Origin: Streptomyces xanthii
GTDB taxonomy: Bacteria > Actinomycetota > Actinomycetes > Streptomycetales > Streptomycetaceae
NCBI RefSeq assembly: GCF_014621695.1
Contig: NZ_CP061281.1
Location: 2,108,001 to 2,172,000, forward strand
Reading direction: 5' to 3'
DNA: 64,000 nt
How positions within the stretch are numbered: the stretch's first letter is position 1; each line of letters opens with the position of its first letter. The notes under the pieces are model-generated. The model did not search any database. It was not told where the DNA came from and saw only the letters and a program-made list of their open reading frames with translations. Positions 55,972 to 62,907 of the stretch are shown one piece after another. The position numbers and the translations under genes were made by a program.

Positions 55972-58182
55972 TCAGCCCTTGTCGAGGTACTGCTCCCGCT
56001 CCTCGTCCAGGAGGGCGTCCAGGGCGGTGCGCAGTCCGGGCAGGTGGTCGAGGTCCGGGTCCGCGGTGACCACCTTGGTCGCCTCCTCGCGGGCCTCGGC
56101 GATGATCTCCTCGTCCTCGATGACGGCGAGCATCCGCAGGGACGAGCGGACGCCGGACTGGGCCTGGCCGAGGACGTCACCCTCGCGGCGCTGCTCCAGG
56201 TCGATCCGGGACAGCTCGAAGCCGTCGAGCGTGGCGGCCACCGCGCCGAGGCGGGCGCGCGCGGGGCTGGCCTCGGGCATCTCGGTGACCAGGAGGCACA
56301 GGCCGGCCGCCGAGCCGCGGCCGACGCGGCCGCGCAGCTGGTGGAGCTGGGAGACGCCGAAGCGGTCCGCGTCCATGATCACCATCGCGGTCGCGTTCGG
56401 CACGTTCACCCCCACCTCAATAACGGTCGTCGCGACGAGGACGTCGGTCTCGCCCGCGGCGAAGCGGCGCATCACCGCGTCCTTGTCGTCGGGCTGCATC
56501 CGGCCGTGCAGGACCTCGACCGTGAGCCCCTGGAGCGGCCCGCGCGCGAGCTGCTCGGCCACCTCCAGGACGGCGAGCGGCGGCCGCTTCTCGGCCTCGT
56601 CCTCGGGGGACTTCTTGGCGGCCTTGCCCTTCTTGGGCCTCTCGTCCTCGTCGTCGCCGATGCGGGGGCAGACGACGTAGGCCTGGTGCCCGTTACCCAC
56701 CTCCTCGCGTACGCGCTCCCACGCGCGCGTGAGGAAGTGGGGCTTGTCGGCGGCGGGCACGACGTGGCTGGCGATCGGTGAGCGCCCGGCCGGCAGCTGG
56801 TCGAGGACGGAGGTCTCCAGGTCACCGAAGACGGTCATGGCGACCGTCCGCGGGATCGGTGTGGCCGTCATGACGAGCAGGTGCGGGGGCTGCTTTCCCT
56901 TGGAGCGCAGGGCGTCGCGCTGCTCCACGCCGAAGCGGTGCTGCTCGTCGACGACGACGAGGCCGAGGTCGTGGAACTGGACCTTGTCCTCGATCAGGGC
57001 GTGCGTGCCGATGACGATGCCGGCCTCGCCGGTGGTCAGGTCGAGCAGCGCCGTGCGGCGGGCGGCGGCGCCCATGGAGCCAGTGAGGAGGACGACCTTG
57101 GTGGAGTGCTCGACCCCGCCGAGCATGCCGCCCTCGGCGAGCTCGCCCATCATCTCGGTGATGGACCGATGGTGCTGCTGGGCGAGGACCTCGGTGGGCG
57201 CGAGCATGGCCGCCTGCCCGCCCGCGTCGACGACGGCGAGCATGGCGCGCAGGGCGACCATCGTCTTGCCGGAGCCGACTTCGCCCTGGAGGAGGCGGTG
57301 CATCGGGTGCTCGGTGGCCAGGTCGTCGAAGATCTCGCGCGAGACCTTCTGCTGGCCCTCGGTGAGGGTGAACGGGAGCTTCGCGTCGAACGCGGTGAGC
57401 AGTCCGTCCGGCTTCGGTACGCGCGCGACGGCGCTGAGCTGGGTGTCGGCGAACCGGCGCCGGGCGAGGGCGACTTGGAGGACGAACGCCTCGTCCCACT
57501 TGAGGCGGGCGCGGGCGTCCGCGATGTCGGCCTTGGTGTGCGGCCGGTGGATCTTGAGGAGCGCCTCGGTGAGCGGGACCAGGCCGCGGCCCTCGCGCAG
57601 GGACTCCGGGAGCGGGTCGAGGGCCTCCTGGGCGCTGGGCAGGACGAGGTCGACCGCCTTGGCGATCTTCCAGGACTCCAGCTTTGCGGTGGCCGGGTAG
57701 ATCGGCAGGAGGGCGCCGGCCCAGGAGCCGACGGCCTCGGCCGCCTCCTGCGAGGAGTCGGCCTGCAGCAGCTGGTAGGCCGGGTGGGCCAGCTGCATCT
57801 TGCGGTTGAAGACGCCGACCTTGCCGGCGAACATCGCGCGCGTGCCCGGGAGCAGGTCCTTGTGCGGCTTGTGGATGCCGCGGCCGAAGAAGACGAGCTG
57901 GAGCTGACCGCTGCCGTCGGTGATGGTGACCTCGAGGCGCTGTCCGCTGCCGCCGTTGAACTTCAGGACGCGGGCGGTCGCGACCTGGGCGACGACGGTG
58001 ACGTGCTCGTCGAGCGGCAGGTCGGCGAGGCGGGTGAGCTCGCCGCGCTCGGCGTATCTGCGCGGGTAGTGGTGCAGCAGGTCACCGACGGTGTGCAGGC
58101 CTAGGTGCTCGGCCATCACCTTCGCGGTGGCGGGACCGAGCGCTTTCTTCAGCGGTTCTTCGAGCGCGGGCACGAGATCCAT
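55972..58182 (-). CDS. recG: ATP-dependent DNA helicase RecG
   Basis: The 736-residue helicase remodels stalled forks. It has an N-terminal wedge/OB domain, Walker A (LLQGEVGSGKTMVALRAMLA), the DEQH box (VVVDEQHRFGVEQRDALR) and conserved helicase motifs including GRVGRGSAAGLCLL. ATG 58182 (MDLVPALEEPLKKALG) is chosen over an upstream start at 58203. Confidence 0.96.
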   Translation of the reverse strand: MDLVPALEEPLKKALGPATAKVMAEHLGLHTVGDLLHHYPRRYAERGELTRLADLPLDEHVTVVAQVATARVLKFNGGSGQRLEVTITDGSGQLQLVFFGRGIHKPHKDLLPGTRAMFAGKVGVFNRKMQLAHPAYQLLQADSSQEAAEAVGSWAGALLPIYPATAKLESWKIAKAVDLVLPSAQEALDPLPESLREGRGLVPLTEALLKIHRPHTKADIADARARLKWDEAFVLQVALARRRFADTQLSAVARVPKPDGLLTAFDAKLPFTLTEGQQKVSREIFDDLATEHPMHRLLQGEVGSGKTMVALRAMLAVVDAGGQAAMLAPTEVLAQQHHRSITEMMGELAEGGMLGGVEHSTKVVLLTGSMGAAARRTALLDLTTGEAGIVIGTHALIEDKVQFHDLGLVVVDEQHRFGVEQRDALRSKGKQPPHLLVMTATPIPRTVAMTVFGDLETSVLDQLPAGRSPIASHVVPAADKPHFLTRAWERVREEVGNGHQAYVVCPRIGDDEDERPKKGKAAKKSPEDEAEKRPPLAVLEVAEQLARGPLQGLTVEVLHGRMQPDDKDAVMRRFAAGETDVLVATTVIEVGVNVPNATAMVIMDADRFGVSQLHQLRGRVGRGSAAGLCLLVTEMPEASPARARLGAVAATLDGFELSRIDLEQRREGDVLGQAQSGVRSSLRMLAVIEDEEIIAEAREEATKVVTADPDLDHLPGLRTALDALLDEEREQYLDKG

Positions 58183-58238
58183 TGCACACCACGCCACTGA
58201 CATTCACCGACCACCGCCGGTGCCCGCGAGGAACCCGC

Positions 58239-58268
58239 TGGTCACGAGCGGCTCGCCGGACCTAGGAT
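58239..58268 (+). promoter_or_regulatory. Candidate promoter for the Hsp90-TPR pair
   Basis: TGGTCA at 58239-58244 and TAGGAT at 58263-58268 with an 18-base spacer form a plausible Streptomyces promoter. I saw no CIRCE or HspR-type operator nearby. Confidence 0.45.
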
Positions 58269-58354: not shown

Positions 58355-60199
58355 ATGGATTCCCAGACTTCACAAAGTTCACAGACGTCCCCGGGCGCGC
58401 AGGCGCCGCACACCTTCCAGGTCGACCTGCGTGGTCTCGTCGACCTCCTCTCCCATCACCTGTACTCCAGTCCCAAGGTCTACCTGCGCGAACTGCTGCA
58501 GAACGCGGTGGACGCGATCACCGCCCGCCGCGCCGAGCAGCCCGGCTCCCCCGCCACCGTGCGGCTGTTCGCCGGGTCCGGGGCGCTGCGCGTGGAGGAC
58601 TCCGGCATCGGTCTCTCCGAGGCGGACGTGCACAGTCTGCTGGCGACGATCGGCCGCAGCTCCAAGCGCGACGACGGCCTGGAGTCGGCCCGCGCGGAGT
58701 TCCTGGGGCAGTTCGGCATCGGGCTGCTCGCGTGCTTCGTGGTCGCCGAGCGCATCCGTGTGGTGAGCCGCAGCGCACGCACTCCGGATGCCCCGCCGGT
58801 CGAGTGGACCGCCCGGGACGACGGCTCCTACACGGTGCGCACGCTGCCGGACGAGGCGCGTCCCGAGCCGGGCACGACGGTGCACCTGGAGGCCCGCGCG
58901 GGCGCGGCGGAATGGCTGGACGAGGAGCGGGTGCTGTCCCTGGCCCGGAACTTCGGCTCACTGCTGCCGTACGACGTGCGGGTGGGCGAGACGGCCGTGA
59001 CGGACCTTCCGGCCGTGTGGGACCGCGAGCACGCGAGTCCGGCCGCCCGCCGGGTCGCCCTGGCGGGCCACTGCCGCGACGTGTTCGGCTTCACGCCGCT
59101 GGACTCGATCGACCTGGACGTGCCGCTCGCGGGGGTCCGGGGCGTGGCGCACGTGCTGCCGCAGGCGGTCAGTCCGGCGCAGCGCGCGAGCCACCGGGTG
59201 CACCTGAAGGGCATGCTGCTCACCGAGCGCGCCGATCAGCTGCTGCCCGACTGGGCGTTCTTCGTGCGCTGTGTCATCGACACGGACAGTCTGCGCCCGA
59301 CGGCGTCGCGCGAGTCGCTGTACGACGACGAGACGCTGGCCGCCGTGCGGGAGGCCCTGGGCGAACGCATCCGGGAGTGGCTGACCTCGCTCGCGGCGGG
59401 TTCCCCGGAGCGGCTGTCGGCCTTCCTGTCCGTGCATCACCTGGGGGTCAAGTCCCTGGCGCGGCACGACAAGGAGATGCTGCGGACGATGCTTCCGTGG
59501 CTGCCGTTCGAGACGACGGACGGGCATCTCTCCCTGGAGGAGTTCGCACAGCGCCACCCGGTCGTGCACTTCACGCGCACCGTGGAGGAGTACCGGCAGG
59601 TCGCTCCGATCGCGTCGGCGCAGGGCATCGGGGTGGTCAACGGCGGTTACACGTATGACGCCGATCTGGTGGAGGCGCTGCCGTCCGTGCGTCCCGGCAC
59701 GGCGGTCGCGGAGCTGGACGCGGAGACGGTCACCGCGCATCTCGACGCCGTGGACCCGGCGGAGGAGCTGGCCCTGGCGGGCTTCCTCGCGGCCGCGCGG
59801 GCCAAGCTCGACCCGCTGGGCTGCGACGTGGCCCTGCGGGCCTTCCATCCGCTGACGGTGCCGGCGCTGCACCTGGACGACCGTGCGGCCCGGCACGAGC
59901 AGGCCCGCGCGGAGGCGGAGGCCCAGGCCGACGACCTGTGGGCGGGCATTCTCGGCTCGCTGCGCGGCAGCGCGCCCCGCGCGCGTCTGGTGCTCAATCA
60001 CCTCAACCCGCTGATCCGCAGGGTCAGTTCGCTCGACGACCCGGAGCTGATCGGCACGGCGGCGGAGGCCCTGTACGGGCAGGCGCTGCTGATGGCGCAG
60101 CGCCCGCTGCGCCCCGCCGACTCGGCGCTCCTCAACCGTTCGTTCATCGGCCTCCTCGAGTGGGCCACGCACCCCGGCACCGGAAAGGACCCCCGATGA
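58355..60199 (+). CDS. Hsp90-family (HtpG-like) chaperone
   Basis: The 614-residue protein has the GHKL ATP site of Hsp90: VYLRELLQNAVDAI (about 42-55), VEDSGIGLSEADVHSLLATI (about 80-99) and FLGQFGIGLLACFVVAERI (about 116-134). The middle domain has the catalytic-loop SRESL segment. The C-terminal third is diverged from HtpG. It lacks a signal peptide. The ATG of the TPR gene overlaps its stop by four bases (ATGA), so the two are translated as a pair. Specific clients are unknown. Confidence 0.9.
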   Translation: MDSQTSQSSQTSPGAQAPHTFQVDLRGLVDLLSHHLYSSPKVYLRELLQNAVDAITARRAEQPGSPATVRLFAGSGALRVEDSGIGLSEADVHSLLATIGRSSKRDDGLESARAEFLGQFGIGLLACFVVAERIRVVSRSARTPDAPPVEWTARDDGSYTVRTLPDEARPEPGTTVHLEARAGAAEWLDEERVLSLARNFGSLLPYDVRVGETAVTDLPAVWDREHASPAARRVALAGHCRDVFGFTPLDSIDLDVPLAGVRGVAHVLPQAVSPAQRASHRVHLKGMLLTERADQLLPDWAFFVRCVIDTDSLRPTASRESLYDDETLAAVREALGERIREWLTSLAAGSPERLSAFLSVHHLGVKSLARHDKEMLRTMLPWLPFETTDGHLSLEEFAQRHPVVHFTRTVEEYRQVAPIASAQGIGVVNGGYTYDADLVEALPSVRPGTAVAELDAETVTAHLDAVDPAEELALAGFLAAARAKLDPLGCDVALRAFHPLTVPALHLDDRAARHEQARAEAEAQADDLWAGILGSLRGSAPRARLVLNHLNPLIRRVSSLDDPELIGTAAEALYGQALLMAQRPLRPADSALLNRSFIGLLEWATHPGTGKDPR

Positions 60200-62907
60200 G
60201 CGAGACCATGGATCTGGACGCCCTGCGGCACGCGATGGCGGAGAACGCGGCGCGGCCAGAGGGTCCCGCGCGGGGCGCCCGCGCGGAGGCGCTGCTCGCC
60301 GAGGCGGAGCGGCTCGGTGTCGCGCTCGGGGTGATCGAGGCGCTCAGCCACCAGCTGCAGATGTACAACTACAGCTCCGAGAAGGACAAGATGTTCGTCC
60401 CCTTCGCGCGTCTGCTGCGCATGTGGGACGAGCACCCCGAGGACTTCGACGCCTACGAGACGCACTCGCTGCACTGGGTCTTCAAGTGGATGACGAACGG
60501 GATGCTGAACCAGCCGCACATCCCGCTCGCCTCCATCGAGAAGTGGCTCGGCGAGATGGAGCACCGCTACAAGGTGGCGGGCCATTCCGAACGGGCCGTC
60601 CGTATGAGCGAGTTCTACGTGGCCGACCACCTGGGCGACGAGGAGCGGGCCACGCGCGCGTACGACGCGTGGCTGGCGGCGGACCGTGACGACAAGGCCG
60701 ACTGCCACGCCTGTGAGCTGAACGGCCAGGGAGCCCGTCAGGCGGACCTGCGCCACGACGAACGGGCCCTCGAACTGTGGGGTCCCGTCCTGGCGGGCGA
60801 GCTGACGTGCGCCCATGAGCCGCACGCCGCGCTGGCCTCGTCGCTGCTGCCGCTGCTGCGTCTGGGGCGTCCGGAGGAGGCGCGGGCCAACCACCTGCGG
60901 GGGCTCCGCCTGGTGCGGCAGATGGAGTCGATGCGGGGCGCGTTCGCGTCGCACGTCGAGTTCTGCGCCCTGACGGGCAACGAGGCGCGCGCCCTGGAGC
61001 TGCTCGCGGAGCGGCCCGCGTACTTCACGGACAGCGGCGACCCGCAGGGCCTGAAGAACTTCCTCGCGGTGACGGCGCTGGTCATGGACCGGCTGGTCGG
61101 GCTGGGCCTGGGCGAGCAGCGGGTGCCGGGGCCGGCCGGGCGCGACTGGACCGCGGCCGAACTCGCCGTGCACGCGCGCGGGGAGGCGCTGGCGGTCGCC
61201 GCCCGCTTCGACGCGCGCAACGGCACGGACGTGGTGAGCAGGCGGGTGCGCGAGCGCATGGACCAGCGGCCGCTCGTGGAGCGGCTCCCGCTGGGCGTGC
61301 GCGTCGCCCGCCCGTCGGTCGCCGTGCCGGTGGCGCCGGCCTCTCCGGCGGACGCGGGGCCGCGGGACGCCGCGTCCCTGGTCGCGGAGGCCCGGCGGCT
61401 CTCGGCGGCCACGGGTGGTCCCGTGGCCGCCCGGGCCTGGGCCACGGCCGCGCGTGCGGCGCAGGACGAGGGCCTGGAGCTCACGGTCCGCGACCGGGCG
61501 GAGATCGCCGACTACGCGGCGATCCACTCCGACGACACCGCCGGCGGCTTCGACCGCGCGGCCGCACTGTTCGAGGAGGCGGGCGACCCGGCGGAGGCCC
61601 GCGCGGCACGCGCGCGTGGGGCGTTCGCGCTGGCCCGCGCGGGACGCCTGGACGAGGCGCGCGCGGCGATCCGGGAGCCGTACGAGCAGGTGGTGCTCGA
61701 CGGGTTCGCGGAACTGGACGCGGAGACGGCCAGGCCGGTGACGGCCGTGCTGACGAGCCGGGCGCGCATCCTGCTGATGGGGCACGCCGGGGACGAGGAC
61801 ATCGCGGACGCCGAGGCGTGCGTACGGGAACTGCTGGGCCTCGCCGAGCGGTTCCCCGACGTTCCCCGCCTCGCCTCCCAGGCGGCGGCCGCGCGGGGCA
61901 TGCTCGGTGACATCGCGGTGCACCGTGGTGACGACGAGGGGGCGCGCGCTCTGTTCGAGGGCGCGGTGGAGGCGCATCTGGCGGCGGAGCGGCCGTGGGC
62001 GGCCGTGGACTGCGACATGCGCCTTGTCGGTCTCGCCCGGGAGCGGGGCGACCTCGACGAGGGCGAACGGCGGCTGCGGGCGGCCCTGGAGCACGGCGCG
62101 GGCGTCCTGGAGCCGCACGACGTGGCGCAGCTGCAGCTCCAGCTGGCGGAGCTCCTCGCCGCGGGCGGTGACGCGCGGGGCGCGTCGGACCACGCCCTCG
62201 AGGCGGCGCACTGGGCCGACGAGGCCGGTGACGGCGCCGGGCTCGGCGCCTGGGCCCGCTTCCAGCTGGGCGGCCATCTGCTGGGCCAGGACCGGCACGC
62301 GGAGGCGGCCGAGATTCTGGAGTCGGCGCTGCTCGACCTGACGTCGGACGATCACGGCGACGGCGCGATCGTGCAGGCCCGCTGGTGGCTGGGCGACTGC
62401 GCCCGCGCCCTGGGCGAGCACCTGCAGTCCGCCGAGGCGTGGCTGCAGGCGGCCGAGCTCGCCCAGCACTGGCCGGAGCAGCGGGACCACGCGATGCTCG
62501 CGAACCTGGCCGCCGACGCGCTGGACCGGGCCGGGCGTCCCGAGGACGCCGACCGCGCGTACGTGCGCGCGGGCGAGCTGTGGGCTTCCCTGGGCCGGAC
62601 GGGCGCGGTGGTGCGCTGTCTGCGCGCGCGTGCCTGGCTGGACTCCGCCGACGCGGACGCCGAGCGCGCCTGCATGGAGGCCGCGATCACCGGTTGCGAG
62701 GAGGCTCTGCCCGACGCCGGCGACGACCGTGCCGCCCTGCTGGCCGAACTGGGCCACACGCACCGCCAGTTCGCCCAGCTCCTGGCTCGCCGGGACGCCC
62801 CGGACGCGCAGGAGCACCTGGAGCGGGCGGCCGCGGCCTTCGACGAGGCCGGGGACACGGAGGCCCGCGACGAGGCTCGGGAGGCCCTGGAGGCGCTGCG
62901 GGGCTAG
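60196..62907 (+). CDS. Large TPR protein coupled to the Hsp90 gene
   Basis: The 903-residue protein is all helical and built of tetratricopeptide-like repeats, clearest in the second half (DVAQLQLQLAELLAAGGDAR, AQHWPEQRDHAMLANLAADA, AFDEAGDTEARDEAREALEA). There is no catalytic domain I recognise and no signal peptide. TPR proteins are standard co-chaperones of Hsp90 in eukaryotes, so a partner role with the coupled Hsp90-like gene is the natural inference, although no clear MEEVD-type C-terminal tail was seen on the chaperone. Confidence 0.8.
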   Translation: MSETMDLDALRHAMAENAARPEGPARGARAEALLAEAERLGVALGVIEALSHQLQMYNYSSEKDKMFVPFARLLRMWDEHPEDFDAYETHSLHWVFKWMTNGMLNQPHIPLASIEKWLGEMEHRYKVAGHSERAVRMSEFYVADHLGDEERATRAYDAWLAADRDDKADCHACELNGQGARQADLRHDERALELWGPVLAGELTCAHEPHAALASSLLPLLRLGRPEEARANHLRGLRLVRQMESMRGAFASHVEFCALTGNEARALELLAERPAYFTDSGDPQGLKNFLAVTALVMDRLVGLGLGEQRVPGPAGRDWTAAELAVHARGEALAVAARFDARNGTDVVSRRVRERMDQRPLVERLPLGVRVARPSVAVPVAPASPADAGPRDAASLVAEARRLSAATGGPVAARAWATAARAAQDEGLELTVRDRAEIADYAAIHSDDTAGGFDRAAALFEEAGDPAEARAARARGAFALARAGRLDEARAAIREPYEQVVLDGFAELDAETARPVTAVLTSRARILLMGHAGDEDIADAEACVRELLGLAERFPDVPRLASQAAAARGMLGDIAVHRGDDEGARALFEGAVEAHLAAERPWAAVDCDMRLVGLARERGDLDEGERRLRAALEHGAGVLEPHDVAQLQLQLAELLAAGGDARGASDHALEAAHWADEAGDGAGLGAWARFQLGGHLLGQDRHAEAAEILESALLDLTSDDHGDGAIVQARWWLGDCARALGEHLQSAEAWLQAAELAQHWPEQRDHAMLANLAADALDRAGRPEDADRAYVRAGELWASLGRTGAVVRCLRARAWLDSADADAERACMEAAITGCEEALPDAGDDRAALLAELGHTHRQFAQLLARRDAPDAQEHLERAAAAFDEAGDTEARDEAREALEALRG

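Follow-up and report, generated by a model that had tools for sequence, protein, structure and literature searches.

An Hsp90-family chaperone gene of Streptomyces xanthii and its conserved three-cysteine partner, a probable co-chaperone or adaptor, paired across bacterial phyla

The TPR co-chaperones of eukaryotic Hsp90 include Hop, CHIP, PP5 and FKBP51/52. For bacterial Hsp90 it has been written that “cochaperones are absent” (mBio 2019, PMC6520445). Bacterial HtpG proteins were split into groups A, B and C by Chen et al. (2006, PMC1525184), who report a second HtpG copy of 615 aa in S. coelicolor and, for Firmicutes, a copy belonging to Group C. Here we report that in S. xanthii, in its genus and class and in bacteria of other phyla, one type of Hsp90 gene is followed almost without exception by a gene for a conserved partner protein. 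A search of titles and abstract openings in the open literature, with preprints and subscription journals outside its scope, gave no published description of the pair among the papers listed, and PRK14083, searched by name in the same literature, turned up for fish genes only.

The pair lies on the plus strand of the 8.35-Mb genome, inside the 64-kb stretch of DNA that we analysed as a whole and call the window. Its features and immediate neighbours are these:

55972..58203, minus strand: recG, divergent neighbour (Pfam RecG domains)
58239..58268, plus strand: promoter-like TGGTCA-N18-TAGGAT (alignment of nine upstream regions of recG-locus relatives)
58355..60199, plus strand: Hsp90-family chaperone of the PRK14083/NF010683 type, 614 aa (NF010683 profile match)
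58409..58999, plus strand: GHKL ATPase N-domain of the chaperone, residues about 19-215 (Pfam, alignments)
60184..60189, plus strand: AAAGGA, Shine-Dalgarno-like site of the partner, within the end of the Hsp90 coding region (sequence)
60196..60199, plus strand: ATGA overlap of Hsp90 stop and partner start (sequence)
60196..62907, plus strand: partner protein, 903 aa, a core module followed by a C-terminal TPR extension (ORF, Pfam, alignment with relatives)
60196..61230, plus strand: partner core module, residues 1-345 (common to all phyla seen)
60703..60714, plus strand: CxxC motif of the core, C170 and C173 (cysteine in 54 of 56 aligned cores at each column)
60808..60810, plus strand: third conserved cysteine of the core, C205 (54 of 56 aligned cores)
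61393..62904, plus strand: C-terminal extension with TPR, about residues 400-903 (TPR_12 E 1.2e-8; long partners among relatives)
from 62998, minus strand: FakA/DAK2-like kinase gene, convergent neighbour

The four-base overlap of the two genes, claimed in an earlier note on this DNA, is present, with AAAGGA just 5' of the second ATG, and the pair does run against its surroundings, recG and the kinase gene both being on the minus strand. The same note gave the pair its own promoter. A consensus promoter scan upstream of the Hsp90 gene found no match, but in an alignment of nine recG-locus copies TGGTCA is kept in eight of the upstream regions and TAGGAT in seven, and because of this conservation we regard the predicted promoter at 58239-58268 as likely. 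Heat-shock operators of the HAIR and CIRCE types, their consensus sequences taken from general knowledge, had no match in the window at up to three mismatches.

The chaperone is a full-length member of NF010683 (PRK14083, “HSP90 family protein”), its residues 16-607 matching profile positions 3-598 of 604 at 860.7 bits (cut-off 455). It is not a canonical HtpG: against NF003555 it scores 173.4 bits, below the cut-off of 371, and the label “HtpG-like” thus holds for the Hsp90 family but not for the type. The family profile aligns over positions 3-581 of 605 with residues 6-612 of 624 of E. coli HtpG, so the N-terminal, middle and C-terminal Hsp90 domains are all represented. Residues E46, N50, D82, G84, G86, G121, G123 and R319 are invariant among 48 aligned sequences, aligned also to TRAP1 and HtpG; we take them to be the GHKL catalytic Glu, the Mg-binding Asn, the Asp and Gly motifs and the middle-domain Arg. 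By sequence the ATPase motifs are intact. The C-terminal tails differ from one another, and in many of them the coding sequence contains the ribosome-binding site for the downstream gene; none of 112 is EEVD-like, and the set has no evident common docking peptide. Among the 120 matches listed of 3246 (canonical HtpG possibly among the 3246), none exceeds 655 aa as a fusion of Hsp90 and partner would.

Family searches of the S. xanthii genome found the Hsp90 of the pair, a 1062-aa GHKL protein matching in its N-domain alone, and no canonical HtpG. Large GHKL-domain proteins of this kind, open frames of about 1000-2500 aa that match the Hsp90-family N-domain only, occur in many actinobacterial genomes (for instance G000:C1:3484886-3485143). 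The idea that the PRK14083 type replaces canonical HtpG is unsupported, as the two are independent across 121 genomes of the genus (p 0.71): 30 carry both, 43 the PRK14083 type only, 22 the canonical type only and 26 neither, with canonical HtpG counted from rows of about 135-196 bits in the family search.

The partner had been described as an all-TPR protein of 903 residues. TPR is indeed found in its C-terminal half, where TPR_12 gives the sole Pfam match over cut-off (three stretches, the best at residues 728-792), but the first 345 or so residues form a separate conserved module. Searches of NCBIfam, PADLOC and PDB sequences gave no match to the window partner, and the core has no Pfam or NCBIfam family; DUF4034, a label that UniRef gives to two of 72 related proteins, has no Pfam match in the partner. 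A PDB profile search with the core returned no more than weak similarity to helical repeats: a designed protein reached E 5.9e-5, and all others 0.024 or worse. Given such matches and the lack of a named family, the core looks to be a family of helical-repeat proteins, as yet unnamed, marked by three conserved cysteines. Among 56 aligned cores, C170, C173, C205 and K97 are each kept in 54, W94 in 53, R341 in 55 and N342 in all.

In most copies outside actinobacteria the core is close to the whole protein. Of the 76 partner ORFs across phyla, 62 have 320-390 aa and so consist of little more than the core. Another 11 exceed this length, ten of them actinobacterial (488-1008 aa) and one from Oscillospiraceae (752 aa), and three are cut at contig ends. 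What follows the core C-terminally is TPR in the window protein, DUF4026 in two Oscillospiraceae, YbjN in two partners without an adjoining Hsp90, or nothing. The DUF4026 cases (L210:8795-11050 and L280:6297-8570) raise a possible chaperone link for that domain.

The cysteines might belong to a redox- or zinc-regulated holdase pair, in which the partner would sense thiol stress and hand unfolded protein to Hsp90. Their conservation at all three columns is consistent with such a role, and in CnoX, a known chaperone, a CxxC domain is likewise joined to TPR (PMC10490939). Two of the 56 aligned cores nevertheless lack at least one of the three, and thiol or zinc control may simply be the mechanism by which a co-chaperone operates; as an explanation in its own right we consider it improbable.

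That the two genes form a matched pair, as the earlier note proposed, is borne out by their co-occurrence; the usual separation that the note named as a refutation is not what the counts show. In the genus sample the partner lies directly downstream and on the same strand at 85 of 85 Hsp90 places, a count that took only places over the family cut-off (leaving out a 230-bit fragment at a contig end in G322); these fall in 73 of 121 genomes, and 12 genomes hold two pairs. Nine partner match pieces of the genus have no adjoining Hsp90: three in G171, one each on other contigs in G308, G326 and G340, one in G372, and, as weak matches to the C-terminal part, one each in G299 and G309. Of 41 Hsp90 places in the class sample (296 genomes), 40 have the partner in the same position, the sole exception (G539) being followed at about 170 bp by a TPR protein of another kind. 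Counted by genome, 36 have the Hsp90, 38 a strong core and 35 both, and the core occurs in three of the 260 genomes without the Hsp90; weak partner matches in G588, G461, G604 and G449 (E 7.8e-7 to 6.4e-4) are left out of these figures, which takes the partner genomes from 42 to 38, and with them included the Hsp90 is present in 35 of 42. Four strong cores of the class lack an adjoining Hsp90 (in G204, G171 and G685, and a second copy in G586), and the genomes G171, G204 and G685 have no PRK14083-type Hsp90 over cut-off.

Several of these solitary cores have surroundings of their own. The G204 core and the second G586 core both follow YbjN and are fused to YbjN. By locus, cores without this Hsp90 stand after YbjN genes at L136:8531-10608, L278:7968-10018 and L137:4133-8883, and the L136 and L278 partners also end in a YbjN domain, which hints at an alternative partner. 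On an Actinomyces oris plasmid the partner follows a YbjN gene and has no Hsp90 beside it. An orphan partner of 1070 aa in G171 (L097:8801-13440) adjoins an IS110 transposase gene where the Hsp90 would be expected, and tblastn found no Hsp90 remnant beside it. At the recG locus of G305 (L128:7713-9559) the Hsp90 frame is broken and the partner match is fragmented, which suggests that the pair is decaying there.

The earlier note would have had the pair sought across actinobacteria, but it is not restricted to them. Our cross-phylum set comprised the best 80 Hsp90 loci among the matches listed, one genome per species from a named collection; it is not an even draw, because the top of the ranking was led by a Paenibacillus query. 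By record title the loci fall into about nine phyla (Bacillota, Planctomycetota, Acidobacteriota, Myxococcota, Bacteroidota, Pseudomonadota, Desulfobacterota, Deinococcota and Actinomycetota), phyla being read from the titles by general knowledge and many records being metagenome assemblies. The core is present at 75 of these 80 loci, on the opposite strand in L184, upstream in L211, and cut by contig ends in L159, L161 and L178. For four of the five loci without it, the genome encodes a core at another place; L181, the fifth, runs into a contig edge, and a search of its genome gave no match. Among 74 loci measured for spacing, 46 overlap (by four bases in 26 cases and by a single base in 14) and 23 are within 0-50 nt; the five exceptions are L212 (88 nt), L192 (121 nt), L154 (772 nt), L211 (core upstream) and L210 (1039 nt, with a nearer second copy). 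Paenibacillus cellulosilyticus has the same ATGA overlap as S. xanthii. In a draw of 247 genomes from the phylum of G409 (Flexithrix), that genome alone has a PRK14083-type Hsp90 over cut-off; the system is therefore widespread but patchy.

In Listeria the Hsp90 gene is followed by two tandem cores, and at L139:4013-8640 the duplicated partner is followed in turn by a SUKH (SMI1/KNR4) gene. Judged by its place next to fri and lmo0942, Listeria lmo0941 is a homologue of the partner; it has been described as a hypothetical protein of unknown function with selection signals (PMC6901971). A 6.6-kb unverified record titled “Bacteriophage sp.” also holds the pair.

At canonical-type Hsp90 loci of the phylum sample, the short flanks contained a core in 0 of 20 cases at E 10 or better, those flanks extending 1.5 kb past a partial-gene match. 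Because this is roughly 0.7 kb past the gene end, a control with 16 kb per locus was added: 20 of the 52 genus genomes with canonical HtpG, chosen for large contigs, had no core at E 10 or better at their HtpG loci, while the same profile found it at 34 of 34 pair loci. The Hsp90 and core trees, built from loci at which both genes had been found, correlate at r 0.948 over 102 pairs, against a maximum of 0.10 in 999 label permutations; for 31 same-genus loci, which include paralogous pairs within a genome, r is 0.963. Since linkage and shared species history inflate r, the trees support cognate pairing and do not prove contact. The pairing itself is far beyond chance.

ATGA overlaps are common in bacteria, and two unrelated stress proteins might be held together by neutral linkage. 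Yet the co-occurrence persists where the genes are apart (in four of the five genomes above), across phyla and in several settings, and we find an accidental association scarcely credible. Among 40 fetched loci the flanking genes differ between the recG, kptA and c2 settings and the pair stays constant, so a common neighbourhood does not explain the pairing. The fixed neighbouring clients that the earlier note would have had scored did not show: across the 80 loci, with a simple gene caller, no third gene recurs beyond common kinase and ABC-transporter families, which reach at most 13 of 80 and stand in scattered places.

Two neighbours are worth recording. A gene for a KptA/Tpt1 RNA 2'-phosphotransferase lies near the pair at L104, L106, L111, L112, L116 and L150 (Pfam-checked for L104 and L150, the rest clustered), directly upstream at the five loci of the same genus and, in Shimazuella, which is of another phylum, 1.2 kb downstream. 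The second, c2, is an uncharacterised ORF of about 328 aa directly before the Hsp90 gene in 14 of the 40 fetched loci (L100-L103, L105, L107-L110, L113-L115, L132 and L133). It has no Pfam family over cut-off, and comparison by hhalign (probability 0.11%) rejected it as a second core, with no homology to the partner core.

A defence function, which the earlier note had also entertained, received little support. PADLOC matched only Hsp90 residues 22-139, the GHKL domain, to TmtA and restriction enzymes, and placed the partner in none of its families. The N-domain does resemble TmtA (31.9 bits), which we take to be a protein of the Tiamat defence system. Further signs that might fit a system based on a GHKL ATPase and serving anti-phage defence or another conflict are the tendency of c2-type copies towards the ends of chromosomes (median distance to the nearer end 0.15 of the length, at 11 loci on large contigs, nine assigned by context and two by score), partner matches on three Streptomyces plasmids, one of them with the pair and a c2-like ORF, and the selection on lmo0941 mentioned above. 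On the other hand, the PADLOC match covers the ATPase domain only, none of 83 pattern matches in viral contigs encodes a relative, the recG-locus copies lie in a syntenic housekeeping region, and no common defence gene is among the recurring neighbours, PADLOC having been run on the two proteins alone. We regard such a function as very unlikely.

The main alternative is that the partner is a dedicated client. The Hsp90 would then serve solely to fold an unstable scaffold of many helices, acting on it as it is made from the gene downstream. This would suit a gene order in which Hsp90 nearly always comes first, often overlapping, a core whose rate of divergence is about 1.4 times that of the Hsp90, and the tandem partners with one Hsp90 in Listeria and in metagenome-assembled genomes of Deinococcales and Oscillospiraceae. 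However, cores exist without the Hsp90 in the G171, G204 and G685 genomes and with none beside them on the A. oris plasmid, so partner folding cannot always need it, and the strict core motif set is not obviously explained by a mere client. Co-chaperone and client would look alike in present sequence data; we hold the client reading to be unlikely, though less so than those already discussed.

On balance, we think it probable that the pair consists of a chaperone and a dedicated, almost obligately co-inherited partner, most likely a co-chaperone or adaptor. With a co-chaperone or adaptor as partner, translational coupling at the observed overlap would yield it from the same message and in matched dosage. 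The three-cysteine core of about 345 residues would be the part that most likely binds Hsp90 and regulates its cycle or delivers a client, its CxxC...C set perhaps holding zinc or acting as a thiol switch. The attachments, TPR in actinobacteria, DUF4026 in some Oscillospiraceae and none in most others, would probably bind clients or other factors.

More tentatively, and with doubt slightly outweighing belief, these observations may be viewed as traces of an ancient Hsp90 system of bacteria that extends across about nine phyla, has an obligate co-chaperone family to itself and originated separately from eukaryotic EEVD-TPR docking. The helical core would be its Hsp90-binding hub, and TPR, DUF4026 and, where Hsp90 is absent, YbjN would be lineage-specific, client-facing modules. 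With a conserved pair of this kind, bacteria would have a dedicated Hsp90 partner open to purification and testing. The pair would also offer an independent comparison for how co-chaperones arise, and would assign a function to the unnamed family to which Listeria lmo0941 belongs.

The closest described systems compare with the pair as follows. Tiamat TmtA shares the GHKL N-domain, but its profiles run to 1302-1655 positions, of which only about 110 match. NF010683/PRK14083 is a clear full-length match whose model name is silent on a partner gene. By length and taxonomic range alone, the Hsp90 of the pair most likely belongs to the basal HTPG Group C, for which the passages on that group in Chen et al. 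(2006, PMC1525184) mention no partner. Canonical HtpG has the same three-domain chain and ATPase residues, but the window Hsp90 scores below the HtpG cut-off and canonical loci lack the core. Eukaryotic Hsp90-TPR pairs are alike in joining an Hsp90 with a TPR-containing protein; they differ in that here the partner is encoded in an operon, its window core has no TPR match over cut-off, and the Hsp90 tails are not EEVD-like, which excludes eukaryotic docking in its usual form and with it the likeness suggested earlier. The S. xanthii proteins would work like an Hsp90-TPR co-chaperone pair, outside the eukaryotic EEVD-docking families.
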